This document shows positions 9,130-64,000 of a stretch of DNA of 64,000 nucleotides, in pieces. Below the pieces are notes generated by a model that made no database searches, was not told the origin of the DNA, and saw only the letters and a list, made by a program, of their open reading frames with translations. The position numbers and the translations under genes were made by a program. Positions within the stretch are counted from its first letter, which is position 1; the number at the start of each line of letters is the position of its first letter. The stretch spans positions 62,001-126,000 of the forward strand of contig JASANH010000897.1 of assembly GCA_030248295.1 (NCBI GenBank), given 5' to 3'. Origin of the DNA: Mesodorylaimus sp. YZB2_4. Taxonomy: Eukaryota; Nematoda; Enoplea; Dorylaimida; Dorylaimidae.

Positions 9130-9820
9130 ATTATTTCCAAAAAAGTATGCTATGACAGACTCAAAACCTTTAGACCAGCCAATGCGCAGAATGGATAACC
9201 AGGGCTCAGGATGGCTGGTCTACTCGGCCACTGCAAATCGCAACAACGGCTGATTAGGAAACGTGCTCAAGCTGCTTTTTCTGCATGAATATAAGCACCA
9301 AGACTAATCGTGAGGGCCGTAGAGAGATCGTGGTCTACTTACGATTAGCGGCCTCGAAGTGTCTGCCTCTCGGGTTGAATGCGCACTACTAGCGAGTGTT
9401 CAACCCCTGCCTACGCAAATCATTCCTGATGTAGTGAAACATGACAATTAAAATACAGTTGCAAAGGGGAAAGACTGTTGCGAGTGTTACTCAAGGCTTA
9501 TGATCTGCCGATAAGCTGCACCACGCTACTCGCAGCGCTAGAGCTTTGGCATATTCAGGTTGCCATCGTGTGAAACAGCTGGTACCCTTTGGGGAGCCTG
9601 TCCAAACAGCAGAACCACACAGACTATGCGGCTTTGGTGATGACATCGACAAGCATCTGTGTGTTAGTGATTACACACTGTGTGCATTAAGCAGCATGAG
9701 AGGACCTTGTCATCGTGCGGCCGAGTAGACCAGCCATCCTAAGCCCTGGTTATTCACTCTGTGCATTGGCTGGTCTAAAAGTTTTGAGTCTGTCATAACA
9801 GACTTTTTTTAGAAATAATA
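9130..9820. mobile_element. MITE family B, copy 1 (~690 bp, ~100-bp TIRs)
   Basis: The left arm 9130-9229 (ATTATTTCC ... GGATGGCTGGTCTACTCGGCC) is the near-complete inverse of 9719-9820 (GGCCGAGTAGACCAGCC ... GAAATAAT). Two further copies occur at 29110-29861 and 33181-33890. Inside each copy is a tRNA-SINE-like segment (here ~9355-9450) with GTCTGCCTCTCGGGTTGAATGCG and a B-box-like TGTTCAACCC. No transposase frame is present. Confidence 0.85.
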
Positions 9821-10093
9821 AGACCGTTTTTCGTTTTTGTTACAAACTAGTTTCGACCACAGCACTGCGTGCCCATGCAAAGATCAACTGAGAAATGAGG
9901 TGACTGACTATTATACATAGAAACCTCTGAAAAGCATAAACCTCAAACGGAACTTGCAGCAGCGCGCCTGAGATTATTCGTACGGTCCGCCTAACACGAT
10001 CGAATGCATGCACTTTTTTAAAAATATGTAGAAACGAGGGCAGCTCAAAAAGTTCGTAGCCTAACCACATATTGAACATATACAATGCCATAA

Positions 10094-10480
10094 TTATTCT
10101 TTTACGACATAACCTCTCCTGAGACCAATGCACTTGTTAACACTTTGGTGCGACGCGTGAATATCGCTTAATAAGAAGGATTACTCACACCCCTCAAAAA
10201 ACGCTCAAGTCGCTGATTTCACTTCCTCATCGCTCAAAAATCATTCCCTCAATAAACTTTTTTTGGGTTTTTCAAATACAGTAGGTACTAATCGCTGGGT
10301 GCCAGGTCTGGACTGTATGGTGGATGATCAATTTGTTTGAATCCCTATTCATCGATAGCAGCCTGAGCACTTTCTTGCAGGAGTTCTAGCGGGATGTGTG
10401 GCAGTGTAAATAAAAAATTTCACTGCTGCAGCTCATGCGGAAGGTACTCAGGGTACGAACATTTTTAACTCCCTCCGTCT
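10094..10480 (-). pseudogene. Mariner-type transposase C-terminal relic, copy 1
   Basis: Reading the minus strand gives HPPYSPDLAPSD (10291-10326), the signature around the catalytic Asp of mariner transposases. It is followed after a stop by YLLYLKNPKKSL, then FLSDEEVKSAT, AFFEGCE, and finally NKCIGLRRGYVVKE with a stop near 10094. This matches the order of the mariner C-terminus (YLF.NLKK, SSDEEV, AFFEGLDKSF, NKCI.L.GDYVEK). Several in-frame stops and the lack of an N-terminal half make it dead. The copy near 30140-30520 carries the same TAG after APSD. Confidence 0.8.
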
Positions 10481-10635
10481 ATAGACACCGGGAAAAAACA
10501 TTACTTCTTTTATGCGCCTATCATATCCGATAGCTTATCCCCTACTTGAAAACGCAATCCAAGATCACCCTCATATTCTTTATTCACAGTAAGGTGCCTC
10601 TGCCACGCGAAAAAAACAGAGCAAAAATTCAATTT

Positions 10636-10706
10636 AGTGATGGAGTCGACCCGCGTACCTCGTGGTTTCAAAACAAGCTCTCTTCCAACTGAGCCATAGC
10701 GCCTCA
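10636..10706 (-). repeat. tRNA-like segment (pseudo-tRNA or SINE head), copy 1
   Basis: The minus strand reads GAGGCGCTATGGCTCAGTTGG (A-box-like), then a 9-base loop with TTTTGAAACC, then CGGGTCGACTCC (B-box-like, one T short). The acceptor stem does not pair well. The copy at about 30673-30745 is nearly the same. It is more likely a tRNA-derived repeat than a working tRNA gene. Confidence 0.5.
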
Positions 10707-10854
10707 AAGGGGGCTTACGTGATGCCCAACTGCCCTTGCAGCGGGAGGGGACGCTCAACTCTGAACGAAATATTTTCAATAATCGATAACTCAAGAACAA
10801 ATTAACCAAAAAGTTTGGTTTTTGCAAGCTTCGCAAGATAGGTCAGGTCCGCTG

Positions 10855-11161
10855 TCGTGCCAATTTTTATCGAAATCCGTCCAGTTGCTGACGAGCAACG
10901 GATGAAAAAGGCCAAAAAAGGGACTATTTTTGGGAATAACTTTTCAGAAATTGATGCTTTCAAAAAATGAATATCAAAAGGCAGATTCCGGAGAAAAAAA
11001 ACTAAAATTCACAACTGTACGAACTCTGGTTGTTGCTCTACGCTGATGTTGTCTCCTCCTCCTCTTCTCCTCCTCTTCTCCTCGTCTTCTCCCCCCTGAA
11101 CAAGAAATCGCGTATTCTGGAACTCGACGACGGCTGGATGGATTCTGATAAAAATTGGCAG
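10855..11161. mobile_element. Small inverted-repeat element nested in the 2-kb block
   Basis: TGCCAATTTTTATC plus AATCC.TCCAG at ~10857-10886 is mirrored at ~11130-11161 (complement of GGATGGATT..GATAAAAATTGGCA). It encloses ~300 bases with a CTCCTCCTCCTC run. The same structure lies at ~30905-31197. Confidence 0.5.
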
Positions 11162-11489: not shown

Positions 11490-11534
11490 AATTTTAGTAT
11501 ATGTCCATGGAATGGACATATGTCCATGGAATGG

Positions 11535-11574
<40 letters not shown>

Positions 11575-11625
11575 GGCCCCTGCGCAAGGATGACACGCAA
11601 ATTCGTGAAGCGTTCCAAATTTTTT
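11490..11625 (+). pseudogene. U6 snRNA-derived sequence lacking its 5' stem-loop
   Basis: From about 11535 to 11625 the sequence follows U6 snRNA base for base: CATATACTAAAATTGGAACG, then the ACAGAGA box, the AGCATGGCCCCTGCGCAAGG catalytic region, GACACGCAAATTCGTGAAGC and a terminal T run. The ~18-base 5' stem-loop of U6 is missing. In its place is a 60-base inverted structure (11490-11549) with 18-bp perfect arms, the outer arm being an inverted copy of U6 bases, and a 19-bp unit repeated twice inside. A tRNA-derived SINE head starts directly after the T run. The near-perfect core suggests recent origin, but without the 5' end and correct initiation site it is probably a retrotransposed pseudogene. 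Confidence 0.85.
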
Positions 11626-29109: not shown

Positions 29110-29861
29110 ATTATTTCCAAAAAAGTCTGTTATGATAGACTCAAAACTTTTATACCAGCCGATGCACACAGTGGATAACCAGGGCTTAGGATGGCTGGTC
29201 TACTCGGCTACTGCAAATCCCAACCACGGTCGATTAGGAAACGTGCTTTTTTTGCGTGAATATCATCACCACGACTAATCGTGAGCAACGAGCAGATTTG
29301 AAAGCAACGAGCAGTGTCATTGAAAGATCCAGTTCGTGGTCTACATGGTGGGCGAAAAGTGTCTGCCTCTCGGGTTGAATGCGCACTACTAGCGAGTGTT
29401 CAACCCCCGGCTACGCAAATCATTTCGTGTAATGTGTACCGCTATCCCGAAGTGTGCTATTCCTTTTGTGGTGAAACATGACCATGAACATAACGTTGGA
29501 AAGGGGAATGACTGTTGAGAGTGTTACTCAAGGCTTAGGATCTCGCGATAAGCTGTACCACGTTAGTCGCAGCGCTAGAGCTTTAGCATATTCAGGTCGC
29601 CATCGTGTGAAACAGCACGGCTGGTATCCTTTGGGGAGCCTGTCCAAACAGCAGCAGCACACAGACTATGTGGCTTTGGTGCTGTAATCGACAAGCATCC
29701 GTGTGTTGGTGATTACACACTGTGTGCATTAAGCAGCATGAGAGGACCTTGTCATCGTGCGGCCGAGTAGACCAGCCATCCTAAGCCCTGCTTATCCACT
29801 CTGTGCATTGGCTGGTCTAAAAGTTTTGAGTCTGTCATAACAGACTCTTTTGGAAATAATA
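29110..29861. mobile_element. MITE family B, copy 2
   Basis: Arms 29110-29209 and 29761-29861 are inverse. The internal SINE-like segment (29353-29490) is the best preserved of the three, with AATCATTTCGTGTAATGTGT and GTGGTGAAACATGACCATG as in the SINE at 11.7 kb. Confidence 0.85.
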
Positions 29862-30139
29862 AGACCGTTTTTCGTTTTTGTTACAAACTAGTTTCGACCA
29901 CAACACTGCGTGCCCATGCAAAGATCAACTGAGAAATGAGGTGACTGACTATTATACATCGAAACCTCTGAAAAGCATAAACCTCAAACGGAACTTGCAG
30001 CAGCGCGCCTGAGATTATTCGTACGGTCCGCCTAACAGGATCGAATGCATGCACTTTTTTAAAAATATGTAGAAACGAGGGGAGGTCAAAAAGTTCGTAG
30101 CCTAACCACATATTAAACAAATACAATGCCATAATTATT

Positions 30140-30520
30140 CTTTTACGACATAACCTCTCCTGAGACCAATGCACTTGTTTACACTTTCGTGCAACGCGTG
30201 AATATCGCTTAATAAGAAGGATTACTCACACCCCTCAAAAAACGCTCAAGTCGCTGATTTCACTTCCTCATCGCTCAAAAATCATTCCCCCAATGAACTT
30301 TTTTTGGGTTTTTCAAATACAGTAGGTACTAATCGCTGGGTGCCAGGTCTGGACTGTATGGTGGATGATCAATTTGTTTGAATCCCTATTCATCGATAGC
30401 AGCCTGAGCACTTTCTTGCAGGAGTTCTAGCGGGATGTGTGGCAGTGTAAATAGAAAATTTCACTGCTGCAGCTCATGCGGAAGGTACTCAGGGTACGAA
30501 CATTTTTAACTCCCTCCGTC
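30140..30520 (-). pseudogene. Mariner-type transposase relic, copy 2
   Basis: Carries the same HPPYSPDLAPSD motif, and the stop directly after it, as the copy at 10.3 kb. The block was therefore duplicated after the transposase had died. Confidence 0.75.
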
Positions 30521-30672
30521 TATAGACACCGGGAAAAACATTACTTCTTTTATGCGCCTATCATATCCGATAGCTTATCCCCTACTCGAAAACACAATCC
30601 AAGATCACCCTCATATTCTTTGTTCACAGTAAGGTGCCTCTGCCACGCGAAAAAACAGAGCAAAAATTCAAT

Positions 30673-30745
30673 TTAGTGGTGGAGTCGACCCGCGTACCTC
30701 GTGGTTTCAAAACAAGCTCTCTTCCAGCTGAGCCATAGCGCCTCA
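30673..30745 (-). repeat. tRNA-like segment, copy 2
   Basis: Near-identical to 10636-10706, with ATGGCTCAGCTGG in place of ATGGCTCAGTTGG. Confidence 0.5.
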
Positions 30746-31434
30746 GTAGTTGGGGGCTTCTTTTACGTGATGCCCAACTGCCCTTGCAGCGGGAGGGGAC
30801 GCTCAACTCTGAACGAAATATTTTCAATAATCGATAACTCAAGAACAAATTAACCAAAAAGTTTGTTTTTTGCAAGCTTCGCAAGATAGGTCAGGTCCGC
30901 TGTCGTGCCAATTTTTATCGAAATCCGTCCAGTTGCTGACGAGCAACGGATGAAAAAGGCCAAAAAAGGGACTATTTTTGGGAATAACTTTTCAGAAATT
31001 GATGCTTTCAAAAAATGAATATCAAAAGGCAGATTCCGGAGAAAAAAAACTAAAATTCACAACTGTGCGAACTCTGGCTGTTGCTCTACGCTGATGTTGT
31101 CCCCTCCTCCTCCTCCTCCTCGTCTTCTCCCCCTGAACAAGAAATCGCGTATTCTGGAACTCAACAACGGCTGAATGGATTTTGATAAAAATTGGCACGA
31201 TTGTAGATTCGGCCGATTCTGCTATGTGTGCAAAAAATCAAAAATTTTTGTCAAACCGTTCTTCAGTTATTAGCCGGCGAAAATCGTCCTTTAGCATTGT
31301 GCGTCTGGTTGGCTGGTCTAAGCACAGAGCATCTAGGTAGCATCGCTCTATGCAGCTTGTAAATGAGAAATAAGCTTAGGGAGAAAAAAATGGGAGTGAC
31401 TTGACGGCCATAATTGAAAATTTGGGTAAAAAGT

Positions 31435-31979
31435 TTAAATTCTTGAAAAGTTACTGTTAAACATTGAAGAAGACATCAGTTGGAATTATTATCTCAACAA
31501 TCATGTCAGACAGAAAAAATAGATTTTTTGTTTTGGTGGGATGGTTATTGAGATATTGGATTTTAAGTGAGGGCCAGAACTTATCACGCACCCTGTGTAC
31601 ACTGCGTTGACTTGTTCACTTACTGTTGCTTGTTCAGCAAATGGTCGAATAAGACGCGAATACCACGAACGTAGTCTTTGTAGTCCTTATCGCTGGCAAG
31701 GCAATGAGTGCGGTATTGGCATCTCTGCGACGGTTGTCAAAGTGGTGCATGACGCCTACAAGTTCCTATCTTGGCACTTACTTCTTTGCAGCTGCTTGTG
31801 AAGTTCTTGCAAAAAATTTTGTAACGCCTGCATTCAGTCTCCTTTTCATCCCAGTCCAAATTGACTAACGTCTGGCCAGGTCGACACGAAAGGCGTTGAT
31901 CCATTTCCGACGAAGGACAAGCACCCACGTCTGACACCAGCACAATTGCGAGCAACGTACGCAACGTTGTGGAAAGCAT
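31435..31979 (-). CDS. Small cysteine-rich secreted protein, unknown family
   Basis: Exon 1 (31782-31979) encodes the signal peptide MLSTTLRTLLAIVLVSDVGA and a Cys-rich start, ending at a perfect donor GAA|GTAAGT (phase 0). Exon 2 (31624-31724, acceptor TCGCAG) continues in frame with RCQYRTHCLASDKDYKDY and a helical VRGIRVLFDHLLNKQ, ending at CA|GTAAGT. A third exon at 31435-31453 (acceptor TTTAACAG) would add HNFSRI and a stop; this last step is tentative. The product is ~106 residues with Cys at 21, 32, 50, 57, 64, 68 and 74. An unspliced reading of exon 1 would stop at 31737 but ignores two perfect donors. Small size, signal peptide and Cys pattern suggest a hormone-like or defence peptide; I match it to no family. 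A TATA box lies at 32023. Confidence 0.6.
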
Positions 31980-42953: not shown

Positions 42954-43898
42954 ATGTACGCGACGCTCGGACTGCTGACGTACTGGCTATTTGTCGATAT
43001 AGCATGTATGGACGGCATTGGTAAGTTATGATCCTGGAGATCCAGGGTCTTGATTCCGGTGTGTCGATCAAATTCGCGCAAGATTCTGTAGGAGATTTCA
43101 GTAATTATCAACAATAATTCGTACTTTATTGTAGCTAGTGCCTTGCCACTAAATCAAGAGTTTATGCGCTCACTGATCCTCAAACGCTTGAAGCGGGCAA
43201 ATCCAACTGGCAATGTCTACGATCCTCCTCTTCCCGTGTTTCCATCCAGAGAGAACGCACCATTCTGGATTCCACCACCGTACCCATTCCCGACCACGGT
43301 GGCACCACCTCCTGTTAATCGCCGCAAACTTCCTTCCTATGACCCCAATAACCCGTACTTGGACGCCATGACGGACGGATACTGGCCTAATTTCGGTCTT
43401 GGATTTATCAATCAAATGCCAACTCAAATAGGTGGCGGAATAAACTGGCCGACTGGCAATGCATTGATGCCGTCCGATCATTTCAACGGCACTATTGGAC
43501 TGGCGCGGCCTCAGCAATTGAGAGTGGGCATGCAGGGCGGACCATTCTTCCCCTATCAGAGTCCTCAGTACATCAAAACGGCCAAGGACATCAACGATGC
43601 CAACATGCTGGCACAAATAGCTCAGACTCAAGCTGATTCGCGGCAACTGGCATCCCTAAACACTGCGCAAGGAACACCAACGGGCTTCATTCCAGTGCAG
43701 CAGCAGATGTTTGTTCAGCAGCAACCTCAGCAGTCATTTGCGCCTCAACAACAGCAGTTGGCTCCATCGCAGGCTCAATTGCAGCCGTCATTCGCGCCTC
43801 AGCAACAGCAGCAATTTTTTTCACGCTCACAACAAGTGCAAGCCTTGCCTAATCATAGGCGGATGTCATTTTCTTCTCTTCCAAACCCTCTGTCTTAG
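42954..43898 (+). CDS. Tandem secreted proprotein family, member 1
   Basis: Exon 1 (42954-43020) encodes MYATLGLLTYWLFVDIACMD, a signal peptide, ending ATTG|GTAAGT. Exon 2 (43135-43898, acceptor TTGTAG) joins in phase 1. The 276-residue product has LKRLKR ending at residue 43, a furin/PC-type site, before ANPTGNVYDPP. The core contains PPYPFPTTVAPPPV, DPNNPYLDAMTDGYWPNFG, NWPTGNALMPSDHFNGTIG and LRVGMQGGPFFPYQ, then a helical KDINDANMLAQIAQ. The tail is Gln-rich (QQQ, QPQQS) and Ser-rich at the end. There are no Cys in the mature part. This composition suggests an extracellular structural or matrix protein, or a precursor cut into peptides; the function is not known to me. Member 3 is its closest relative. 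Confidence 0.85.
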
Positions 43899-46530
43899 TT
43901 ATGGAGGAGACTAGGCTCTAAGAACGATTATGTGCATTATCATTGTCGGGTTGTGTATGCATGTGTGGGCGGCCATGGACCTGTTTTGTACCTTCGAACA
44001 AATGTATTATACTCTCTATTGTTAGATGAGAACACGTTTTTGTTTTGTTCTCTGTGTTAGTACAATCTTAAATGTACTGTACAGTATGGTAGGTACCTGA
44101 GCCAATAAGAATCATGCTGATCGCCAGTATTGAAATCCTTGGCTCGCTCTAGGATTCATGCCTATTACAGCATCTTACTATTATGCGGTTTTTTTCAACC
44201 ATCTGTATAGCTCGTAAAATTGATCACCTCTCTGATGTCGCATGGTTGGTGCCAGTCGATGGCACCAATCTGATAAGGAAAGACATGTGCCTCGTTCTGC
44301 ACTGGACACACGTATACGGCTATATGGCATGGGAACCTGGGCTAGCAAGCACTTTGCACCACTTCCGCGAGTGCAGTGACATCCTACCCCACCCAATCTG
44401 GGAGGAGTCAGTGGTGAAACACCCGTTGGGTACGCTCCTCTTAGACGGGCCCCGTCTTTGACCCGGAGATGGATTCCTTCAAGGAGACGAGGTGAAACTG
44501 GGTCTGGCACATGGCAGTCTTACTGTACATCCATGCGAATACCATGACGGCTGTCCAATTGCATACATAATATGCTGATCATATCTCGGAAAGTATTATA
44601 TATCTAACGCATACTCAACGTTCTTCTGAGCTTGATCTGCCCCACGTCTGTGGATTTAAAATGTCACTGGCAAATCACCCTGATCCAGGGCCATCTCAAG
44701 GATGGACCACACCCGATGAAATCAGGCCGTAGACGAAGGACTGTCACGATCAGCACATTCCACCAATTTGTCATACATGAAATAGCAAACTAGTTTTTCG
44801 TGACAAGCCAGTCATGATCGACAAGAAATGCTCATACGTCTTGCGTATCGAGAAACAACCTAAATCATGTGTCAAAATAACCGCTCCTTTAACTCGTCAA
44901 AACTAAGTCGATTCATGCATTTCCTATCCAAACTGGTGATCACTGGATTAGAGTAGTGCATGCGAAACAGGGCAGAACAGTTCAATCATTTACTGCCATT
45001 TCTGAGCGCCGACAAGCACTGCAATACCCGCGACTCTGGAAATAATCGAAGTGCAACGGGATACGCCAACGCGGGGGGCTGACCATAGAACGAAAGTTTG
45101 TCCACTAGGAAATATTTGAAAATTCTGATATACTACGTCATGTCATGGCTTATTCGTCACATGAGCAAATACTCTTCAATCAATGTGAAGCAATGAACCT
45201 TGCACACTAATCGTGAGTTTTGCGCCAATTCCTTTTTAGACCACATTCCCAGAGGGTGAGAGGGTACATGCATTTTTTAGGTTTGCCAGTATGAACGTAC
45301 AGGACAGGACATATAACACCTATGTTTTCAGAAAAGGCCTGGTCACGTTGATCGCCTGCCATCCCTTTTAGACCTTGGCTATGCTGCGGAATCCTTGCTT
45401 TTGTCCAACGTGTTATGGCGGTCTGTATCACTTCAAATTTTACACCTTGGTAGCCACAGAGCGGGATTTCCTGCCTGGGCTCTTATTGCTTGTATGTGCA
45501 CCCTCTAATGCAATCTGAGAATTGACATCATCACGCCGTGAAAATATGCGGAATCGCATTGGTGACTAAAAGCTGTATCAGTAGAAGGTGAGAAGCAGGT
45601 GCGCTACGAGAGTGTAAGAAGCCGCATCATTCTTATAGAAGTGCATGATGCAATGGCGTGAAAGTACGACCTGGCTAACAAAGAAACTATCGATGTGGTT
45701 ACGGACCCAAAAAATGTGTTCGAGTGCCACGAAGTGCCAAAACATGAATGTGTTCTGTAACTTACACTGGACACTGTCTACAGACCAAATTCCGAAAAAT
45801 ATGTGCTTTTTTGTGCATTTTGTTGTTCGCACGATTGACTCGTCATCACTCGCAAAACTTTTAATCATATAAAAATGCGCATTCTCCGATGTTCCATCTA
45901 CGAAGCGTTTTGCCAGCAATCGAGGGAGAAAAAGTGCTTTTGTGGCGAGTGATTGCAGGATCAGCTGAAGCTTCTTCAATGACTGACGGACACCTCCATT
46001 TCAATACAACCTCGTCACCTCAGGAATAAAGGATTTCAGAGGATGAACCAGGGTGTGAGGATTTACGGTACGAAAACGCTTCGTAGACGGGGCATCAGAG
46101 AGTGCTAATTTTTATACGATTAAGTTTTATGAGTGATGACGAGTAAATCGTACGAACAGCAAAAACACGAAAAGGCACATCTTTTTCGGAGTTCGGTCTG
46201 TAGACAGTGTCCAGTCTAACGAGCACATTCATGTTTTCCTAAAAGTTTTTTCCAAACAAAAAATGCACAATACCGTCGAATTTTTCAAAAAGACAGAAGC
46301 GAGTATGTTGCACGACTAGACGAGTCCCTACAAAAGCACTGGGGCGCAAACGGCGAACATGCCGGAGCTATTTTCGATTGTGCTGGCATAATTGATCGAG
46401 TTAGGCATCAAGCGCTCGGGGCGGAGCGAACGGGGCACGACTGAATGATCTTATGCGCATGGACATCCCCGCATACAAATGGCGGTAAAATGCAGATTAC
46501 TCCGGTTTGGGTAGAAGAAAAGTTCCAAAA
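43899..46530. other. Spacer between cluster members 1 and 2, with a foldback repeat
   Basis: No gene is called. The frame pair at 44181-44510 (both strands) has no splice context. The inverted repeat at 45735-46240 is listed separately. Confidence 0.35.
45735..46240. mobile_element. Foldback repeat, ~170-bp arms
   Basis: 45735-45915 (ACATGAATGTGTTCTGTAAC ... ACTGGACACTGTCTACAGACC ... ATCTACGAAGCGTTTTG) is mirrored, at roughly 80% identity by eye, at 46070-46240. A ~155-bp spacer separates the arms. Weak similarity continues outward, so the element may be larger. No coding capacity. Confidence 0.7.
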
Positions 46531-47997
46531 ATGTACTATGAAAACACCCTAATTTGTTGTCATTTATTTGTTTTTATATTGGTTTTTGACCAAGTGTCAG
46601 GTGAGTCTTCGCCTTGGCCCTCTTTCGTTGCTTTGGATACTCTGCTTGTTTTAATCATTTAATCTAAATTGTCGTATGCCCCCAAATGATGCATTCTCAT
46701 GATTAGGACTTTATTGGAAGGCGCAGAATTCAAGTGTCAGCCACCGCTTAGGTGTGTAGATGCTGAATATATCTCAGGTTACACGACATGGCGGCATGGC
46801 GGCTGGCCGAGCATCTTCCAGATCATCGTTTCACGTCCATGCGGCTACTCTAGATGACCGGTTTTCTCGAAGAAATGAATATTGTCTTCCTCAAGTTTTT
46901 TATGTTCACTGATACAATGCGTCAGAAGTGTGAACACAACTTTTAATGAGATAAATTTCTGCGAGATTAATTAAAATGATTCAGCTTTTATCCTCCTTTG
47001 GGATGGAATTTAGTTCAGGAAAAAAGGGAAAGTCAAAGTCAAATTTCGACCTGGCTTAACAGATGCGTAGCTCGTAACTCCTATATGTCAGCACAGCATG
47101 GAGAGAATACAGCGGTTTATGTACTCCCACCTGATTCCCCCTTCTTTACCTAAAGCTTTCTATAAAAAAGTATTGTAGAAGCCCTAGTCTTTGTAATTAA
47201 AGAAGATGGTTTATCTGAACAGAAAAAACTGAATCTGAACAAAACGACTTTTGAAGAATCGGGGGAATAAACTTAGAAACCAGGACCTACATTTTCCGCT
47301 CTTCTCTGGCCTTTTTCGGCTTGTTCCTTGTTTTTATACTACACTCCTGGTTTTAGGCGGTTCTCCCCCGCTCAATGAAGCATTCAGGCCCTCCATTTTC
47401 TCCAACCGTCTAAAACGCGGCAATCCAACGGGCAATATTTACGATCCGCCCTTTTCTGCCTTCCCTTACAAAGAAAACTCTCCTTTTTGGCACCCATGGC
47501 CCTACCCTTTCCCAGCCACTACGGCACCACCTTCTGTCAACCGACGAAGACTCCAGTACTACAACCCGAATAACCCTTTCGTGGATTCTATGGCTGATGG
47601 ATACTGGCCCAATGTGGGACTGGGCACTGTTAACCAGCGACCCACGCAAGCCAATGGACCAACTGGAAATTCCAGAGGAACCATAGCATATTCACGGCAG
47701 CCTGCGACAACGATGCAAGGTGGTCCTTTGGTTCAAAACCAGAACCCTCAATTGGTTAGAACAGGCCAAAATTCAAATGGTGCCATTGTGCAGACGCAAG
47801 CTGAGCCGAGACAGATGGCACATGTGAACAGATTGCCAACAAATTTCATCCCGCCACAACAACTGCTGACCCAACCTCGTCCCCAGCTTGTGTCTCAGCG
47901 GCACCCACAAATTTTTGGGCAAGCGAACCAAGCACAGCCGTCTCAATATAACAGGCAGTTGTCGTTTGCTTCCCCTCCGAATTCAGGATCGTCGTAA
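46531..47997 (+). CDS. Tandem secreted proprotein family, member 2 (diverged)
   Basis: Exon 1 (46531-46600) encodes MYYENTLICCHLFVFILVFD, a signal peptide, with donor TCAG|GTGAGT. Exon 2 (47357-47997, acceptor TTTTAG) joins in phase 1, giving 236 residues. The cleavage site SNRLKR ends at 44, followed by GNPTGNIYDPP. NPNNPFVDSMADGYWPNVG is conserved. The second half has drifted: GGG.NWPTGN...SDHFNG is reduced to NGPTGNSRGTIAY, and QGGPFFP to QGGPLVQ. The tail is Gln/Pro-rich. The open frame and intact splice sites say it is still a gene, but the core is under weaker or different constraint than in members 1 and 3. Confidence 0.82.
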
Positions 47998-48393
47998 ATT
48001 CATTTTTAGCACTAGAGAAAGCTTATGGTTCTAGTAGGCGTAGTTCCGTAGCGACCGCACAAAACTTTTTTGCTAAAGGTGTTCTGTAGGTTTAACTGAC
48101 TAAAGTAAAAAAATGGCCACTTATGTACAGTTAAGTTCAAATATGGCCGATTATGCGCCCGGTCGAATGAAATAGCCTATATTTTTTCATGGCTGAATGG
48201 AATGTCTGATCTATGATAGCTTGTAACTTTTTGCATTTCTGTCGCGTTTTTGGTCCACCCCGCACAGTACAGTAGTATCTTTCGATGCCTCTAAGGAAGT
48301 AATTTAATGTCCTTTCCATCAAGCAACAAGATTACTCCAATGAGCAACACAATGACTCCATATCATTGTTGAAGTACTTTCTTGTTTGTCTAG

Positions 48394-48571
48394 CCGTGGT
48401 CACTCTGGTCTGGGTCTGAGAAAACCACGCTTGGGACTGGATTATGTGAGTAAAATGATTATTCTTTTTAATGAAGAAGACAAGAAATTAATCTCTTCTG
48501 GACCTGGTTCTTTTGATGTACCCGTGATGTGCTCAGAGGACTCTGGCTTTTATATTGAATCGACGAGTTGA
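48394..48571 (+). CDS. Candidate terminal exon, unknown protein
   Basis: Acceptor TTTGTCTAG, then a phase-2 frame of ~59 codons ending TGA at 48571. It encodes GLGLRKPRLGLDYVSKMIIL, then FNEEDKKLISSGPGSFDVPV and MCSEDSGFYIESTS. The composition looks coding; no upstream exon or family is identified. Confidence 0.33.
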
Positions 48572-49954
48572 AAAAGGTAAGTCAGCTTGTTTTTGGCATT
48601 TCAACATTACTGACATTAAAGATTTCTGGCAGTCAAAATTTCTCGTGTAAGTGGCAGAGAGAGAATGCACTGGGCATGGAATGATGGAGGCCGCGTTTTG
48701 GATACGAGGACTGTGGAAGTTGATGGTAAACTTTAAAGTCCGGGTTTCTGAGACACTTATCGTTAGCCCGTGCAAAACACCAGGACAAATCTTTGTATGC
48801 TCAATCAAAATCATGCATGAAGGAGACTGGATTAGGTGCAAGTTTATTTTGCGCTCTCTTAAAACCGTCTAAAGTATTAGGTCGAAAAAGGTTCCCTGGA
48901 AGAACTTTAGCGACTTCTTTGTTTTTCACGAACATAAAAGAAATACTGCAAACAACAGAAAAAAATGACCCCGAGCGGGAATCGAACCCTCGTCCGTGAG
49001 GACGCTCCTGAAAATATTATTCGATGCAAACTTGATAGGGGATATCAGTAGAAATCGCATGGGTCGATTTCAACTACTGCTCGGAGGTCGTGGTCTTGCT
49101 ATCTGTCAAGTTTTAAATTTTCTGCAGCTGCAAGGGTTTCAGAGATATGTATTAGCGCGAATTTCTTATGACCACCTGAGTCGAGCTCTCTTGAAAACAT
49201 ATATCCTCTTAAAAGTAAGCTGAGACCACCCCATCTTTAGGGGCACGTCCACCATCTGGCCCCTAAAGATCGCTAGAGCTTCATTAGCCAGCAGCTGTTT
49301 TACTCCCAAAGATCACTAGCTAGGGTTAGTAACACGATGAGTGCATATCAGCAGCCTGGTGGCTACTTAGTCTCTTGAAACAAAAAAGGACGGCTGCAGG
49401 GCAGTGTGTGGTGCTGATTCAATAACGTGCCTATTGCGTACTCAACAAACTCGACTCCACTACAATCTGGTATAATTGTACGAGCATCATCTCCAGCACA
49501 CACTGTATCACTTTATAGACGTTTTATAAACAGCCATATTAGCCTCGCAACCAGTGGGCGCTCTCCTGCTGTTGTGGCGGCAATGCATTTTTTCAGGAAA
49601 AAAATGTCCGTTCATTATGCGCCAAGGACTCCGGCCGATGTACCGTTCTTTATCCGACCATCGATTCGAGTAATCGATCATTTCACAGACAGGTTTATCC
49701 GGATGTGCCCACCCCGAGTGTCCTTACCTAAGAGTCGGTTCGCTCCAGCAATCAGAAAAATGCACTTGACTAAAAGAAAGGTACGTTGGAGATAAGTGCA
49801 TGATTTCCCATTGCAGACCTTCTCGTACATACCTGGAATGGGCGGGGTTCAATGCAGAAATGGACAGTTCGTGCATTAGGTTCATACTCGTACACTCAAC
49901 TAAAGGCCAGTTGTAAAGTTCTCGTTGGAGGTAGTGTGTAGATGGTGTTCTGAA
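48572..49954. other. Spacer between cluster members 2 and 3
   Basis: A tRNA-like piece on the minus strand lies near 48968-49012 (GAGGGTTCGATTCCCGCTCG). A ~45-bp block CAGGTTTATCCGGATGTGCC at 49691-49735 recurs at 50102-50147 within the intron of member 3. A 122-codon frame (49427-49795) has no supporting signals. Confidence 0.4.
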
Positions 49955-51086
49955 ATGGCGATAAATTGGTGCCCCGTGCTTTGTCTTTCAAGCTTTCTGT
50001 TGGTTGGTGCATTTAATTCATGTAAGTGGTGTTTTGTTTTGCTTTTTCCATATTTATGGGATACTGAAAGCATTGATTTGAGTGAATCGATTATTACAAG
50101 CAGGTTTATCCCGATGTGCCCTCCTCGGTTGTCCTTATGTAGCTCGCTTTCAACGCGCTCAAACACTTTCATCCTGGAAGCGTTGAAAACGTGGATAACA
50201 ATGCGATAAAATGTTTCCCAAAATTATTTATTCTCAAACTCACGGAATCCAGCGCTTTTCGAATCTTCTGACAGATAAGACTGTTCATAAATATTCTGCT
50301 AGTGTGCTTGAACCATCCGAAGTTTCAGAAACTTTTGCCCTGGTAGAAGTGGCGTCTTTCAGCCCAACTGACCTTTTAGCTCACTCATACCCAACTATTC
50401 CTCGTCGCACATTCGTGCTTAGCCTCCTTCTCAAACGCGAGAAACGTGGCAGTCCGACGGGAAATATCTACGACCCACCTCTTCCCGTGTTTCCATCCAA
50501 AGAGAATTTGCCATTCTGGATTCCACCTCCTTACCCTATGCCAACCACCGTGGCACCCCCACCAGTCCAACGCCACCGACTCCCCTATTACGACCCCAAC
50601 AATCCCTACTTGGATACCATGACCGACGGATACTGGCCAAACTTTGGTTTAGGCTACGCTAATCAAAATCCGACAATGATCGGAGGCGGTCTTCACTGGC
50701 CAACAGGCAACATGCTTATGCCGTCGGATCATTTTAATGGCACCATCGCGTTCGCCACACCCCAGCATCTGAGAGTAGGCATGCAAGGTGGTCCGTTCTT
50801 CCCATACCAAAACCCACGGTACATCAAAACGGTCAAAGACATCAACGATGCCAACATCCTACAACAAGCTGCCCAGGCGCACAGCGATGCAAGGAGATTA
50901 GGATCGAGCAGTGATGGTCAAGAAATTCCTGCTGGCTTCATTCCAGTGCAACAGCAGATGCTTGCTCAAACGAAGCAACAACAGTCTTCCCAGCCCCAGC
51001 AACAGCAATTTTCCACGCGCTTTCGGCAAGTACAGTCGCCATCTAATCAAAGACAAATGTCGTTTTCTCTTTTTTCTAAAAGATAG
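49955..51086 (+). CDS. Tandem secreted proprotein family, member 3
   Basis: Exon 1 (49955-50021) encodes MAINWCPVLCLSSFLLVGAF, a signal peptide, with donor TCAT|GTAAGT. Exon 2 (50380-51086, acceptor CTTTTAG) joins in phase 1, giving 257 residues. Cleavage site LKREKR ends at 45, before GSPTGNIYDPP. It keeps every core block of member 1: PPYPMPTTVAPPPV, DPNNPYLDTMTDGYWPNFG, GGGLHWPTGNMLMPSDHFNG, LRVGMQGGPFFPYQ and KDINDAN. The tail is Gln-rich (QQQSSQPQQQQFS). An open frame runs upstream of exon 2 to 50211, but the signal peptide and paralogue structure favour the spliced form. Confidence 0.85.
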
Positions 51087-51594
51087 TTCATTTTCTGCAG
51101 GTTTATGATTGTCATTATCAGCCTCGATGTGCAGAAATTCCTATTTCACCCACCCGTTTGTATGCAGCTCATGTTTTACGAGCTGCTTTTTATGGGAGGT
51201 TTATATCCCGTGCTATTTAGTAAAAATGCTTCAGTGCCTGCTGTAAAAGTGCTGTAATATGTACATTATTTTCCAGCTTTCCTTTTTGTCTGAATCAGCT
51301 GAGGGCTGATTGCGGTGTTAGGGGGACCACGATCAGCTCACGTCGTCAGCTTCTCGTCGTGCGCAGCAGCACTTGTCGTCGGTTTCAGCATCCTTTACAC
51401 TGCCGACCCCCCTTGCATCGAACTTCAACGTGTGTCCATACGCACCAGTGCGCGAAGGACTTGCAAAATAGGTGACACTAAGGGCAACTAACAGGTGAAT
51501 ATGCACACTTAGTGGGCGATAATGGCGTAAGTCTATTTTCTCGCCCTATTTCTCATCATTGTGATCTATTTTGTCGCCCAATGCAACCGTGTGC
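51087..51594. other. Spacer between cluster members 3 and 4
   Basis: No gene or repeat recognised. Confidence 0.4.
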
Positions 51595-52813
51595 ATGGAT
51601 TGTATTCGTGTGTGGGAACTGTTACTTTTGATGAGTGCATATCTTATTCATGAAGGTATGTTCGAATGGCCCAGTCTGAGCATAAGGGACCATAGGGGAC
51701 CATAAGGGACCATAGGGGACCATAAGGGACCATAGGGGACCATAAGGGACCATAGGGGACCATAAGGGACCATAGGGGACCATAAGGGACCATAGGGGAC
51801 CATAAGGGACCATAAGGGACCATAGGGGACCATAGGGGACCATAAGGGACCATAGGGGGCCATAAGGGACCATAGGGGACCATAAGGGACCATAGGGGAC
51901 CATAAGGGACCAAAGGGGACCATAAGGGACCATAGGGGACCATAAGGGACTATAGGGGACCATAAGGGACCAAAGGGGACCATAAGGGACCATAGGGGAC
52001 CATAAGGGACCATACGGGACCATAAGGGACCATACGGGACCATAAGGGACCATACGGGACCATACGGGACCAAAGGGGACCTCAAAGGGACCATTTTTAT
52101 GACTTCCACCTGGGGACCCAGGGATCTCTAAGAAGAAGATTGCTGTTTGAACTTTATCTATTTTATGAACCTGATTATTAATTACAGGACTTTGCATCCC
52201 CCATCGACCCTTGCAAAGGCAACGACGCCAAGGCTCACCAAACGCCTTTAATCCACCAGTTCCAGATTTCCCCTCTCCACGAGACAATCCACTCTATCTT
52301 CCCCCACCTTATCCCTTGCCAACAACGGAGGCTCCTGCTCAAAATCCGCCAAAAATCTCGCGATTCGCTGGATCCAGCACTCCTTACCTGGATGCGTTAA
52401 CGGACAGTTTCTATCCAAATTACGGGCTCGGTTTCCTCTACCAGCAGCCTGTATTGGTCAATGGCGGTCTAAGTTGGCCTACAGGAAACATTCTTCAGCC
52501 CACTGATAGATTCACTGGAAATCTTGGTGTTGTCCGACCAGTGCAACTACGACTCGGAACCCAAGGTGGTCCATTTTTCCCATGGCAGGACTCGAGATTC
52601 ACGCAGACGATCAAGGATGTTAATGAGGCCAGCTTGACGTTGCAAATGGCCCATCTGTTGCAGAATTACGCATTGCTCAGGTCGCTGGACGATGGACGAG
52701 TGAATCCTTCGGCTGTCACAGGGCAGAACCGACCCGTTCAAAGACCCCAATCGTTTGGTCAGGCTATTAATCGCATGGACCCGTTGACTTCCCTGTTTGA
52801 TCAAAGAAGATAG
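51595..52813 (+). CDS. Tandem secreted proprotein family, member 4
   Basis: Exon 1 (51595-51655) encodes MDCIRVWELLLLMSAYLIHE, a signal peptide, with donor GAAG|GTATGT. Exon 2 (52188-52813, acceptor ATTACAG) joins in phase 1, giving 228 residues. The basic site QRQRR ends at 34, before QGSPNAFNPPVPDFPSP. Core: PPPYPLPTTEAPA, TPYLDALTDSFYPNYGLGF, NGGLSWPTGNILQPTDRF, LRLGTQGGPFFPWQD and KDVNEA. It lacks the long poly-Gln tail and ends in DPLTSLFDQRR. Its intron is filled by a 10-bp minisatellite of ~400 bases. Confidence 0.85.
51681..52080. repeat. 10-bp minisatellite (GGGACCATAR)n in the member-4 intron
   Basis: About forty units alternate mainly GGGACCATAA and GGGACCATAG, giving a 20-bp higher-order period. 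Variants (CATACGGGAC, CAAAGGGGAC) are concentrated toward the 3' end. It lies wholly within the intron. Confidence 0.95.
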
Positions 52814-53649
52814 TATTAGAATTATTGCAATGATATGAGAGATCAGTCAGAACCTTGCAAAGGTTTATGTTCTTATATTCAGTGTGCGATGAGCCTAATG
52901 GACTGTTGGCTGCAACATCAACTTCCACGTGATAAATGATTGCTGTGACAAGCTACAGAGCAAAGTGCAGAAGTGCTTTTTACAAATATTAAGATGCAGA
53001 ATGTTAGTGGCCTAACAGAATATGTAAAGTGTAAATTATGTCTTTATGTAATATATTTCATCAAATTGATGAGTTCAAGATCCTGTAATACAAATGTATT
53101 TATCCGTCCATACTCAATGAGCTGTACTCGTGAATACTTGTTTAGTTTCTCCCCTAAAATAGTTTAGGGGGAGACACAGAGGGCAGTGAGTTCCATGCAG
53201 CAAGGGTGGCCGCACCGGTTAAATAAAATCATCACTTTGAATCCAAGATGTTGCTCATTTCAATTTCTTCCACCCCTCAAATATAACCGTCCTCAATCCA
53301 TATGAAATAATAATTCAGTAATAAATACTATCTCTGAGTGTTTATGGTATCACGCTTTGCACACTTCCGAGCCCAATAGATGACGTTATAGTCTACACCC
53401 CTTTTCCGGAATAAGTCCGTATCTCAAAATACGTTAAGTGTCGAGAGCAATACCGACTGACCCATCTACAACAGAAAAGACAAACAACGGGTATAATTGA
53501 TTTCAAAATCGTCCTCGATGACAGTCGCCCCGAGGCGTCCTACTCGGCCCGTCTTCTCCAGAGAGACTGGGTGGAAGGCACTGCGCGAACTGTAGTCGCT
53601 ACCGAGGAGTCGTCATTTGCAGTAGGTGCTTCGAAGCAAGATTTTTAGA
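52814..53649. other. Spacer between cluster members 4 and 5
   Basis: 3' flank of member 4 and 5' flank of member 5. A hairpin-like pair TCTCCCCTAAAATAGTTTAGGGGGAGA lies near 53147-53173. No gene is seen. Confidence 0.35.
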
Positions 53650-54340
53650 ATGAGGTGGGCATTGACTTTGATTATTCTGATTTTCTTATGGACAAACAAA
53701 AATGGTAAATTTTAAAGATTCGTTACCTGATCAATCTTATTCAATTTCTGTTTCAGCTAATGGTCGGCCTTCACATCGCTTGAAACGTGATTTTGTGCCT
53801 CCTTCTTTTGCTCCTCAATTAGCGGCTGGTCGGCCACCTCAGCCAGACCCTTTGCGACCAGAACATATTGACCCGAATAATCCCTATTTGGAGAGTCTCT
53901 CCGATCCGTTCTACCCAAGCTACGGCATAGGCGTCGGTTACCAGCGACCTTTCATTTTGGGTGGCGGGGCCAATGTCCCGACAGGAAATATTTTCCGACC
54001 TACTGAGAGCGTAAATGGAACAATAGGCGTTACTCAATTGAGGAATGTCAGATTTGGCACACAAGGTGGTCCGTTCTATCCGTGGCAAGATCCAAAGTTC
54101 GGTGGCAGTGCAAAGTATTTGGCCATGCTCCAATATCAGCAACAACAGCGCCAGGCAATGTTGGCTGATCAAATGGCTAGGCAGGCCATGGCCAGATCAG
54201 GGGCGAGCTCTCCAGTTGATCCATTCAGTAATCCTAATCCGGCTGCAGGAGGCGATGACAGGATGAGAGCCCTGCAAAATATGCCCGCCAATAATCTGGC
54301 GACACCACCCCCACTGCCAGCACGATTTTCGTCAGTGTAA
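53650..54340 (+). CDS. Tandem secreted proprotein family, member 5
   Basis: Exon 1 (53650-53704) encodes the short signal peptide MRWALTLIILIFLWTNKN, with donor AATG|GTAAAT. Exon 2 (53757-54340, acceptor TGTTTCAG) joins in phase 1, giving 212 residues. Cleavage site SHRLKR ends at 29. The N-terminal PTGN..DPP block is missing, but DPNNPYLESLSDPFYPSYG, NVPTGNIFRPTESVNGTIG and FGTQGGPFYPWQDPKF are present. After the core comes a Gln/Met/Ala-rich helix (QYQQQQRQAMLADQMARQAM) and a Pro-rich end. The intron is only 52 bases, the smallest in the cluster. It shares PWQD with member 4. Confidence 0.85.
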
Positions 54341-55037
54341 GGCTATGGTACGCGTCATGTTTGAGCAGACTTTTTTTTGAGTACCGTACCAATATTACAA
54401 GAAACGGTTATACTTTGTGTATGTTTGATGTTCCATGTAAAGCCGGATTGTGCGCGTGGAAAAGTCTTGCTCTTTTGCATAGCTGGTTTATTATTGGTTT
54501 AATGAGAACAGACCTAAGACCACCTGTTGGCATCGAGCGTGTGTTCTAGCGATAGTACACTCTACTTTCTATTTGTACCCCGCCCATAAGTGAGTTCCTT
54601 CCACGCATGCTTTGGCAAATGGTAGCAAAGTTTTTTACTGGGTGTAGCTCGCAGTACGCAGCTTAGACTTTACAAATCTTTCTGTGAATTTACATAGCTG
54701 CAAAATATAAAGCTCTGTTTATCAACAGGCGAAGTCAGCTTAGCAGTGAGGCGCAAATCGGACCTAAATGAAGCGACCTACAGCTATACATACTATCTGT
54801 TTGCTTTGGGAATGTACACGCGGCCTATGCGGTAACGTGGAGGGCGTGTATATTCTCAAAGAAAACAGGTTATACTTGGGTAAAAATGATTTTCATTTTT
54901 TTGAAATCCTACGTCCACCGCCGTATAGTTAGCCCCAAGCGAAGAATATGTGCCCTCACGATGACAAAGGCAGAGTCAAAGAATGGTCCAAGCCCATAGC
55001 ACGATAACAAAGCTCAAATATGTAGATTGATATTTAC
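54341..55037. other. 3' flanks of cluster member 5 (+) and lectin gene 1 (-)
   Basis: The two genes converge here. The missing short last exon of the lectin must lie in this stretch if the gene is intact; I could not choose an acceptor. Confidence 0.35.
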
Positions 55038-55696
55038 TTGTGATTTGGCAAATAGGGTAAAAAGGACACCAATTTCTGCTATCATTAGGGGCGTCTCCGA
55101 AGTAAATTGACGCGCCATTGACAACTAAAGTTATAAAATTGCCATTGCCAACAGCGCGGTCCCCACACGCCTTGATTCGAATCCAGGTTTTCCCCGCTGG
55201 CAGTAAGGCGTTGGCTTGTGTGAGGCTGTCGTACCAGTACGTGGTGGTGTTTGTGATGGCGCAAGCTGGTCTTTTGTCCAAAGGGTCACGTTGGAGAGCG
55301 ATCCAGTACGACGTCAGCCTCTTGTTAGTGGCCAAAAAAACAGGATGCGGGGACTGAATTATCGCTATGTGCGCATCTTACCAAGCATTTTTGGATAATC
55401 TTATCGCACTCGTTAGTTGTGTGGATATGCGCCAGAGTCGCTCCATAGCCGTACTGCTGGAACACTGCCCAGGACTCAGTCCAGGAGGTGGATATATTTC
55501 CGAGAAAGAAACAACGCCCATTGTCCATCACGCCATTCAAAGTTTGGGTACACGTCGTCGCCCATATATCGCACGTGGCTTGGCCATCTGCATGAAAAGA
55601 TGAGAATGCATAAATGATGACACACAAGCATGCCTAACACCCCAACTCACCGACACACCCATACAGCCAGAACAGAACCAAGGCTGCGACTTTCAT
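55038..55696 (-). CDS. Secreted C-type-lectin-like protein, gene 1
   Basis: Exons on the minus strand: 55651-55696 (signal peptide MKVAALVLFWLYGCVG, donor GTGAGT), 55382-55587 (acceptor CATGCAG, donor TTG|GTAAGA) and 55038-55320 (donor A|GTAAAT). A short last exon was not found. The lectin fold is visible in order: C...NGRCFFL, W..SWAVFQQYGYGATLAHIHT, SYWIALQRDP, TYWYDSLTQ, and a final NWCPFYPICQ. This follows the CTLD pattern (WIGL-like motif, W..C...C), but no EPN/QPD-WND calcium site is clear, so sugar binding is unproven. Exon 3's start is odd: homology to gene 2 begins 12 bases before the first AG, where the sequence TTTTTTTTGGCC has no acceptor. Gene 2 is divergently arranged at 62.1 kb. 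Confidence 0.72.
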
Positions 55697-60510: not shown

Positions 60511-62129
60511 CGGGCTTTACTGGTCGAAGTTTGCTGTGCGATTGCATCTGAATAATTTTACTATGTCACGAGGACGCCTTGGCTAAGGCAGGCTGGTCCA
60601 CACTATATGAGCTCTGTAAACGTGCCGAATCGGATTATTTTATAAGCGTTACCATGGGTTTATTATTTGGGAATCCGCGTTTTATGCACAAAATCTGACC
60701 GTCATGTCAGTGGGCGACTCTGTGAACTACATCATTTGGATTTTCCAAGTCATAATTTTGAGTCCACATACAGAGTTTTGTGTTTTCTGCGACTGTTTTA
60801 TGGGATTCTGTACCATAAGATTATGCTTGCTGGTAACTTGCTCTCGCGTGTGATGTGAGGTGAGGTGAGCTTTGATTAATTTCAAAAATGCCCCCCTCCC
60901 GTCAAGTGCATGTATTTGCCTGGGCCAGGAGTAAAATGATCATGATGGGATTCTGCTGTCCCTCTTTGGCCTCAATGACTAAATGAAGATGACAGAATTT
61001 TAGTTTAGCTGAAAAAGAACCGGTTTTGCGGGTCGAGAGAGCTAAGGCAAAGTGCCAAAATCTCAAGACGCCTAAAGATTGCCCTGAAAATTGCTCCAGA
61101 AAGGTTAGCTCAAAATTGCAATATGTAGATCAAGGGCAATCAAGTGCGCCTGTCAGCGCTGCTGGGAAATAAAAACACCAGAATGGGTCTTAGGACATGG
61201 TCGAGGTAGTTCTCAACTCAAGACGCGGTGTCCCACCCCAGGACACCAAGTTGATTGTGAAATGGCTTTGGACCGTCCTAGAATTTAGGACATGCCTTGG
61301 GATTTAGAACTGTAAAACTGCCCTCAGATCCCCACACAAGAAGGCGGCAGCTTAAAATGTTTTCACCAACATTTCACTAAATTTACTTTCTTTCGCTGTC
61401 AGAATACTCTGACCTGGTGCAAGAAATTCTGACCTGACCCTGACCTTCACCGACCCCTCAAAAAATTTTCTAACCTGACCCTGACCTTCAGGGGCCCCCT
61501 TCAAAAAGTTTTCTGACCTTGACCCTGACTTTGATCAAGGGTCGGTCACTTAGGGTCTTGACAGAATTCTGACCTTGACCTTGAGGTCATTTCTGACACT
61601 AGCCCGAATTCAACAAAATCTGGTAAATAGTTATCGACATGTTCAAAAACTTTGCAGATCCCAGGGAACTGTAATTTGGACACTTTGCACTGTACAAGTC
61701 AAGCAGATACCCCTGCAGTCAACGTAAATTCAAAACGGGAAATCATTTGATAGTTACGCACGAAGCCGTTTGCTGATTTAAAGACCACTGTCACTTGCTC
61801 ACAAAGACGACAGCTTTTTTTGCCTTCGCAATTAAATGAAGCTGGCGACTGAAACCATAGCGATGCTCCAAGCGAATAGCCGCAGTTCAATGAGCACACG
61901 TAAGAAATTTCGAAGAAGTCTGTTAATTAAGAAAACGGAGACTAAATGTGGACAGTCAACGTTGAACTGGAAGGCTGTTCAGACGTCTAGAACGTCATAG
62001 TGCTACAGCGAAAGGCCGATAGGATCATGAAAAACTCACGAGGTACCGACGACCGTGGCATTTCGGCAGCGCGCAAACATCGCTGTTGAGGTGCCAGGCC
62101 ACAGAAAAACGTCTATATCTCTAACAAAA

Positions 62130-63237
62130 ATGGGATTCGCAATCTTGGTTCTATTCTGGTCGCATGGATCTGTTGGTGAGTTGGGGAGTTGTGGCTGCGC
62201 GCCGTCGATCTCATAAATTTGAATCTTTTTACTCAGATGCCCAGGCCAAGTGCGACATATCCCCAACAACGTGCACCCAAACTTTGAATGGCTTAATAGA
62301 CGGTTGGCGCTGTTTCTTTTCAAACAAGACCAGCAAATTCACTGGATCCTGGGCAGCGTGCCAGCAGTACCGCTATGAAGCTACTCTGGCACATATCCAT
62401 ACAACAAGCGAGTATAATAAGATTTTCAAAAAATCTTTGGCAAGGATTGTTGAGATTTAGCTCCCCTTCTCTTCAGCCTTACAAGGGAACATCGCCAACC
62501 GTTAAGTCGAACTCTAAGAAACCAAAAATTGTAGTATGTTCCTGGGTGCAAAAGAAAGCTATGTGCAAAATATTAGAGGCGTCTGGCCAACTGGTCAGCA
62601 GTGGTCAGCGTCTAAAGTCCCGGATTTTTGTGTGTTAACGAAGCTGAGCGTTGAGAAAAACACGCAAAGTTCTTTCCAAACTAGATATTTGGGTTCGGAG
62701 TTTCGAGTTTAAGCTTCCAACACTCGGGTTTGGGGTTTTTTGCTGAAAAAACCCGAAAAATCCAACAGAATTTGAAAATTTCACTGTACTTTTCGCGCTG
62801 ACCAGAAGTGACCAGTTGGCCAGACGCCTCTAGTATTTTGCATAGAGCTTTCTTTTGTACCCAGGAACATGTCACAATTTTTGGTTTTCCAAAATTCGAC
62901 TTAATGGTTGGCGATGTTCCCTTGTTAGTTTGTTAGGCCACCCACACGAACCTGACGTCGTACTGGATCGGCCTGCAGCAGGACCCACTGGAAACCAACC
63001 TAATGTGCCCCGTCACGAACACCACCACTTACTGGTACGACAGTCTTACACAAGGCAATGCCTTACTGTTAGTTGAAAAAACATGGATTCGGAACCACGC
63101 GTGCGTGGAACGTGATATAATTGGCAATGGCAATTACATGATCTTAGCCATATTTAACGCAACATATTTCTTTTTTGGAGACATCTTTGATAATGGGAAT
63201 ACGTGGTGTCCAATATTCCCTTCATGTCAAATAACGA
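62130..63237 (+). CDS. Secreted C-type-lectin-like protein, gene 2
   Basis: Exons: 62130-62175 (signal peptide MGFAILVLFWSHGSVG, donor GTGAGT), 62237-62439 and 62937-63237 (donor A|GTAAGT). The CTLD follows gene 1 block by block: TCTQTLNGLIDGWRCFF, SWAACQQYRYEATLAHIHT, LTSYWIGLQQDP, TYWYDSLTQGNALL and WCPIFPSCQ. The second donor is GC (TTG|GCAAGG) where gene 1 has GT. If GC is not used, the frame runs into a stop at 62458. The second intron holds a whole MITE A copy (62482-62924), without which it would be ~50 bases. It is either a functional gene with a GC-AG intron or a recent pseudogene. The last exon was not found. The 24-base signal-exon and intron neighbourhood also matches gene 1 (GTGAGTTGGGG). 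Confidence 0.68.
62482..62924. mobile_element. MITE family A copy inside the lectin-2 intron, TSD TTA
   Basis: 443 bp from CAAGGGAACATCGCCAACCG to its complement, flanked by TTA (62479-62481, 62925-62927). It is the best-preserved member: the outer ~80 bases of both arms pair almost completely. Confidence 0.88.
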
Positions 63238-64000
63238 GTAAGTATTAAACTATTTGAGCCATTCTTCCCTGCTGCTAACAAAATCGGAATACGGCTAACA
63301 GAAAGGACTGACAAAAAGAAGGATGGTTCAGTCCTGTCGTTAGCCCACGAATTTTGTCTTGTTCCTGCGCCTGAAAACAGGGATTTGTCCACAAAAGGCT
63401 TGCTCTTTCAGACCGCGCCCGAAGTTATCATAAAACCAATTTGTGCATCATCGAGCCGCCAGTCGAAACGTTGCCAGCGACTCAGGCGCTAGACTGCGCT
63501 AGTGCCAATGTTTGTGCGAATGTGGTGTCGAAGTTTTACTTTCATGGTCGATTAAACGTGCGACACATTTTCATGCCAGTTATTTTCGTGGTTTTCGACT
63601 GAAAACTGCCCTAATTGCCCTGCCACGGCCCAAGCGAAAGGAACTTTGTGCCATTATTTTGATTACATACCTTGAGTAATCGAAACTTGGAATCTGATGC
63701 AGGTCATTCTGTGATGCCATGATCATCTTTTGTGAAGATGCTGCTCTCTGCTTGCACAGAACTTTATAGAGCGGTACGAGTAATTTGAATGTCCGATAGA
63801 ATATTCAGACAGAGAAGCGCACGATAGTATGCAAGCTTACAGCATGAATAGTGGCTTAAATAGCAGAGAAGCAGTCAGGGCATTACAGTACACGAAACTT
63901 GCTGCATGTGATGCAAGCGCAGGTAGCGGCTGAAAAGATACAACAATTAGCCGGCTTGTGTTTTACTTCTCGTTATTGTAAAATTTGAAGCGATGTCGGT
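63238..64000. other. 3' flank of lectin gene 2
   Basis: A block at 63580-63680 (TTCGACTGAAAACTGCCC ... GCGAAAGGAACTTTGTGCC) resembles 57100-57180. A final lectin exon is expected in this stretch or beyond the window. Confidence 0.4.

Follow-up and report, generated by a model that had tools for sequence, protein, structure and literature searches.

The 64-kb window analyzed here, positions 62,001 to 126,000 of contig JASANH010000897.1 from the dorylaimid nematode Mesodorylaimus sp. YZB2_4, contains five paralogous genes, designated g1 to g5, all encoded on the + strand between window positions 42954 and 54340. Each gene consists of a short hydrophobic exon 1, a single intron and one large open exon. 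In all five cases the intron is in phase 1 and bounded by GT and AG, with sizes of 114, 756, 358, 532, and 52 bp for g1 to g5, and the encoded proteins comprise 276, 236, 257, 228, and 212 amino acids, respectively. Five same-strand genes sharing a signal exon, a phase-1 intron and a large exon had been proposed in a sequence-only reading of this DNA, and all five gene models agree with that proposal.

In g1, a signal-peptide-like exon 1 (42954-43020) is joined to an exon 2 (43135-43898) coding for a basic RLKR site, a Pro-rich arm, the conserved core, and a Gln-rich tail. The signal-peptide-like exon 1 of g2 (46531-46600) precedes an exon 2 (47357-47997) with an RLKR site and a divergent core with deletions, and that of g3 (49955-50021) precedes an exon 2 (50380-51086) with an REKR site. 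The corresponding exons of g4 are located at 51595-51655 (signal-peptide-like) and 52188-52813 (RQRR site), whereas g5, with a signal-peptide-like exon at 53650-53704 and an exon 2 with an RLKR site at 53757-54340, has the shortest N-terminal arm of the five. The first exons were assigned from the gene models and from a scan of both strands of the window for an ATG followed by 17-26 codons, one further base and a donor-like GT, with a hydrophobic stretch. The scan returned six candidates on the + strand and three on the - strand, and five of the six are the proposed first exons, one preceding each gene; since its thresholds were picked once the models were known, it lends support and is no independent test. 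Judged by hydropathy alone, a signal peptide is predicted for all five proteins, g1 lying at the threshold.

The intron of g4 harbors, between signal exon and main exon, a 20-bp minisatellite (51681-52094; 20.6 copies with 94% matches by Tandem Repeats Finder, TRF). Between g1 and g2 there is a long inverted repeat (45739-46237), foldback- or MITE-like (miniature inverted-repeat transposable element), whose arms are 83% alike over 173 bases, or 69% over 515 bases in another alignment.

Mature chain, conserved core, and age of the copies

The basic sites named above are the only RX[KR]R motifs, exactly one per protein, and their last residues are residues 43, 44, 45, 34, and 29 in g1 to g5, which bears out the earlier claim of a basic cleavage site 29-45 residues from the start. 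When each protein was shuffled 5000 times, a site starting at residues 23-46 arose in 0.26%, 0.54%, 0.50%, 1.12%, and 1.30% of the shuffled sequences for g1 to g5, chances that are not independent as the five proteins are paralogues. A hydrophobic exon 1 together with one basic site in each of the five agrees, at the sequence level, with their previous description as secreted proproteins. The chain past the basic site had been described as free of Cys, and none of the five proteins has a later Cys. The predicted mature chains are 183-233 residues long with a net charge of +2 to +8, and the proteins contain 13.7-15.1% Pro, 8.2-15.0% Gln, and 5.2-9.8% Ala. Plain dibasic pairs after the RX[KR]R site number 3, 2, 2, 1, and 0 in g1 to g5, overlapping pairs being counted singly. 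At the DNA level, no tandem array is detected by TRF, either in exons of the window or in the coding sequences after splicing, and runs of three or more consecutive Gly-X-Y triplets are absent from all five proteins.

The mature chain is laid out as a Pro-rich arm, a core rich in aromatic residues, Gly and Asn that carries PTGN and QGGP, and, in most copies, a Gln-rich tail. Of the 151 columns in the alignment of the core, 23 are invariant; all five proteins have PTGN, QGGP and a number of isolated residues in common. The sequence-only reading had spoken of fixed blocks, which holds for PTGN and QGGP, whereas only g1 and g3 match DPNNPYLD..TDGYWPNFG, SDHFNGTI, and QGGPFFPYQ exactly, and g4 and g5 have variants of them. 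In g2, which lacks 13 of 73 core columns, the first and last of these blocks read NPNNPFVD..ADGYWPNVG and QGGPLVQNQ, and SDHF is missing. A second PTGN near the mature N-terminus, noted before for three of the five proteins, is present in g1, g2, and g3. Core identities range from 61/73 (g1-g3) down to 24/60 (g2-g4). For the 150-residue core, AlphaFold gives a mean pLDDT (predicted local distance difference test) of 39.3 with no residue at or above 70, from an alignment of five rows, a low value that is compatible with disorder and equally with so thin an alignment.

Rates of nonsynonymous (Ka) and synonymous (Ks) substitution were estimated by the Nei-Gojobori method for the ten pairs among the five genes. 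Ka is 0.31-3.27 in the tail versus 0.12-0.67 in the core and is lower in the core in all ten pairs, so that the core is indeed more conserved than the tails, much as had been proposed for the blocks. The closest pair is g1-g3, with a core Ka of 0.12 and a saturated synonymous difference in the core (proportion of synonymous differences 0.93); taken over its full length, the mature chain of this pair has a Ka of 0.19 and a Ks of 3.2, and some stretches are short of saturation, such as the N-terminal arm (Ks 0.97) and the KDIN stretch (Ks 1.26). In the other nine pairs the synonymous sites of the whole chain are saturated. In blastn comparisons between copies, exon 2 alone aligns, and introns and flanks do not. 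Mostly saturated synonymous sites combined with a conserved core indicate that the copies are old duplicates whose protein core is under purifying selection. For duplicates of such age a recent expansion of the cluster seems unlikely, and orthologues should exist in related nematodes. An unrooted tree supports a single split, g4 and g5 versus g1, g2, and g3, with branch lengths of 0.09 (g1), 0.20 (g3), 0.49 (g4), 0.66 (g2), and 1.12 (g5, the longest). With its long branch and core deletions, g2 might be either adapting or decaying, though its reading frame, its intron and the cleavage site are all preserved.

Family searches and other features of the window

Protein searches of the 145-Mb genome (1067 contigs) with g3, g4, and g5 as queries locate the family at this cluster only, as expected for the tandem paralogues that had been postulated, although such a search scores the best candidates only and very divergent members could escape it. 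One weak genome match (C22:846784-846975, E 0.45), interrupted by two stops, is taken as noise derived from the tail. Degenerate extra copies within the window were not detected by tblastn, which returned weak matches only, i.e., at 31505-31600 on the - strand (E 0.6-0.9), at 47925-47791 on the - strand (E 0.10), antisense inside the exon of g2, and at 1002-1148 (E 0.06), inside a DnaJ frame.

When the five whole spliced proteins and the exon-2 frames were compared with Pfam, the sole match up to E 10 was TFIIA, for two of the five proteins (E 0.31-1.1), which is considered low-complexity noise, as is a match of g1 to phrog_20763 in PHROGs (E 0.053). NCBIfam yielded no matches up to E 1, and a search of Protein Data Bank (PDB) sequences with the family profile gave nothing credible. 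No relatives were confirmed in viral contigs or in bacterial and archaeal genomes, as expected for a nematode gene. A literature search with the family's motif strings returned nothing relevant by title; only the string WPTGN was encountered, in papers with unrelated titles. The statement that the proteins cannot be assigned to a known family therefore stands for Pfam, NCBIfam, PHROGs, and PDB sequences, and as judged against these collections the cluster represents a real, conserved orphan family of secreted proteins.

Outside the cluster, the window contains a DnaJ-domain exon (722-1147, Pfam E 3.8e-26) with an N-terminus that is hydrophobic by eye, and a U6 snRNA gene (11522-11624, 113 bits), whose start is overlapped by 2.2 copies of a 19-bp unit (11499-11540). 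A direct duplication of 1.75 kb (9422-11160 and 29459-31197), 95% identical and 20 kb apart, is possibly a transposable element. Two related genes in opposite orientation, at 54976-55633 (-) and 62125-63248 (+), share 76% DNA identity over 209 bases; by eye we take them to be C-type-lectin-like, and their four exon frames gave no Pfam match up to E 0.1. Positions 1-70 of the window, inside the contig, are occupied by a degenerate TTAGGC-type repeat (12.2 copies with 74% matches by TRF; four pattern matches versus 0.31 expected), TTAGGC being the nematode telomere unit. The canonical 22-mer of spliced leader SL1 has no match with up to two mismatches in the 145 Mb of this genome; its absence would be unusual for chromadorean nematodes.

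Putative function and alternative readings

Secretion and cleavage of the five proteins are predicted from their sequences. Exon 1 would provide the signal peptide, and a proprotein convertase of the BLI-4/furin type would cut after the single RX[KR]R site and free the Cys-free chain; the convertase P-domain has seven matches in this genome, including two side by side on the same contig. As in nematode cuticle collagens, the cut might permit secretion and proper assembly, and the mature chain, which may be largely unfolded on its own, would then enter an apical matrix via its core. Body cuticle, pharyngeal cuticle and eggshell are candidates for such a matrix. Cross-links through Tyr or Gln are perhaps formed, a speculation by analogy with CUT-2, which reportedly forms dityrosine. 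That the five genes encode secreted, convertase-cut structural proproteins built into an apical matrix is a proposal to which we give about an even chance; its matrix part draws on composition and on the behavior of nematode collagens and pharyngeal-cuticle proteins, and by such analogy could go either way.

Cuticle collagens such as SQT-3 and DPY-17 resemble the five proteins, as predicted here, in having an N-terminal hydrophobic segment, an RXXR site and a long extracellular chain. An N-terminal RxxR is reported for 109 of the 173 C. elegans cuticle collagens, and in the experiments described there a change of RxxR to AxxA caused SQT-3 and DPY-17 to be retained inside the cell (PMC10538796). 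Col_cuticle_N has 133 matches in the genome of Mesodorylaimus sp. and none in 14 control genomes, which by itself marks the genome as that of a nematode. Among the 30 best-scoring of these 133 loci, examined downstream from a point shortly before the domain ends, 21 contain RXXR and nine the stricter RX[KR]R, counts that are lowered by frames ending soon after the domain in several loci; RQRR and REKR, the sites of g4 and g3, are also present in these collagens. All five proteins have an N-terminal RXXR, a shared feature that is insufficient for membership among the cuticle collagens. Unlike those, they contain no Col_cuticle_N (Pfam, E up to 10), no Gly-X-Y runs and no Cys after the site, and unlike the cuticlins with their Cys-rich ZP domain they lack a ZP match in Pfam as well as Cys in the mature chain.

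Also comparable, as secreted low-complexity proteins of nematode cuticles, are the epicuticlins (EPIC-1 to -3 and epicuticlin 1 of Ascaris) as well as CUT-2. As described in PMC11529277, Ascaris epicuticlin 1 is made of near-perfect Ala/Gly-rich repeats of 49-51 residues, and Ala amounts to about 34.5% in EPIC-1 and EPIC-2 together and to 27% in CUT-2; in contrast, the five proteins have no more than 9.8% Ala and no tandem arrays. A further likeness, by description, is to the IDPA, IDPB, IDPC, and APPG (ABU/PQN) families of the pharyngeal cuticle, which are secreted, of low complexity, and belong to a cuticle with Pro/Gln bias; according to the same account, 48% of the C. elegans pharynx moult secretions are predicted to be disordered, and Cys-, Pro-, and Gln-rich pharyngeal proteins peak as the new cuticle forms (PMC9629831). 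The SPIA-1/DPY-6 family, nematode-specific secreted matrix proteins, is defined in PMC11304992 by a C-terminal cysteine-cradle domain, whereas none of the five chains has Cys after the site.

Several observations weigh against a matrix role. Many secreted proteins with no part in a matrix have RXXR sites, too. Nine of the 30 best-scoring collagen loci have no RXXR, and the count of 21 is inflated by at least one site (RPGR) that falls in the collagen repeat itself. The pharyngeal-cuticle proteins are described as Cys-rich, unlike the five chains. A core as conserved as this may signal specific binding or folding and not bulk material. Low AlphaFold confidence from a five-row alignment need not mean disorder, and the charge-hydropathy index, near zero for all five proteins (-0.08 to +0.07) and on the ordered side for three of them, does not support disorder either. 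Co-regulation finds no support in common upstream k-mers, as the 400 bp upstream of the five genes have no 7-mer or 8-mer in common to all five, and the one shared 6-mer plus its complement fall short of the average for 200 random sets.

The five proteins might instead be soluble secretions of a pharyngeal or amphid gland or of the reproductive tract (uterine or seminal fluid), processed in the same way and not built into a matrix. The features of secretion and processing fit this equally well, as do the tandem cluster, the diverging tails and the fast copy g2, whose branch of 0.66 compares with 0.09 for g1 and 0.20 for g3; this combination of features is common among secretions. In contrast, the conserved core and the make-up of Pro, Gln and aromatic residues would be more typical of structural proteins, and we consider a soluble secretion rather unlikely, if worth keeping in mind. 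With still less confidence, the proteins could be assigned to the eggshell or its vitelline layer, in analogy to PERM-2 and PERM-4 of C. elegans. PMC7712855 describes both as secreted mucins found in the vitelline layer, where they are in a complex with CBD-1, and they are matrix components likened here by description; a Pro/Thr-containing arm is present in the Mesodorylaimus proteins.

Precursors of signalling or antimicrobial peptides, with the active peptide freed at the basic site, would also have one convertase-type site behind a signal-peptide-like exon, and g1, g2, g3, and g4 each contain at least one plain dibasic pair after that site. However, each protein has a single RX[KR]R, the later pairs bound no series of short peptides, and the chain of 183-233 residues carries only a modest positive charge, all of which makes such precursors highly improbable. 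A divergent kinship to PIERCE1, a microtubule-wall piercer protein, has next to no probability. PIERCE1 does top the PDB ranking of the family profile (hmmsearch E 0.017 over 83 profile positions; hhalign probability 35.8%), but a reversed-sequence control profile scores as well against the unrelated WDR24 (E 0.0055), and the candidate was rejected. Pfam, which has a model for the PIERCE1 family, yields TFIIA noise only; moreover, PIERCE1 is located inside microtubules and the five proteins are predicted to be secreted.

Returning to structural proproteins of an apical matrix, a more specific version appears possible, though we would hold it only tentatively: the genes may define an undescribed nematode matrix family in which a convertase releases a Cys-free chain and the aromatic PTGN/QGGP core acts as a new module for self-assembly or cross-linking, independent of collagen, ZP and cysteine-cradle domains. 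Should the matrix role prove wrong, a conserved orphan family of secreted proteins would still merit a curated model. If it is true, the parts list of the nematode extracellular matrix gains a family whose conserved core is independent of collagen, and the convertase site of this family makes the assembly step directly testable.

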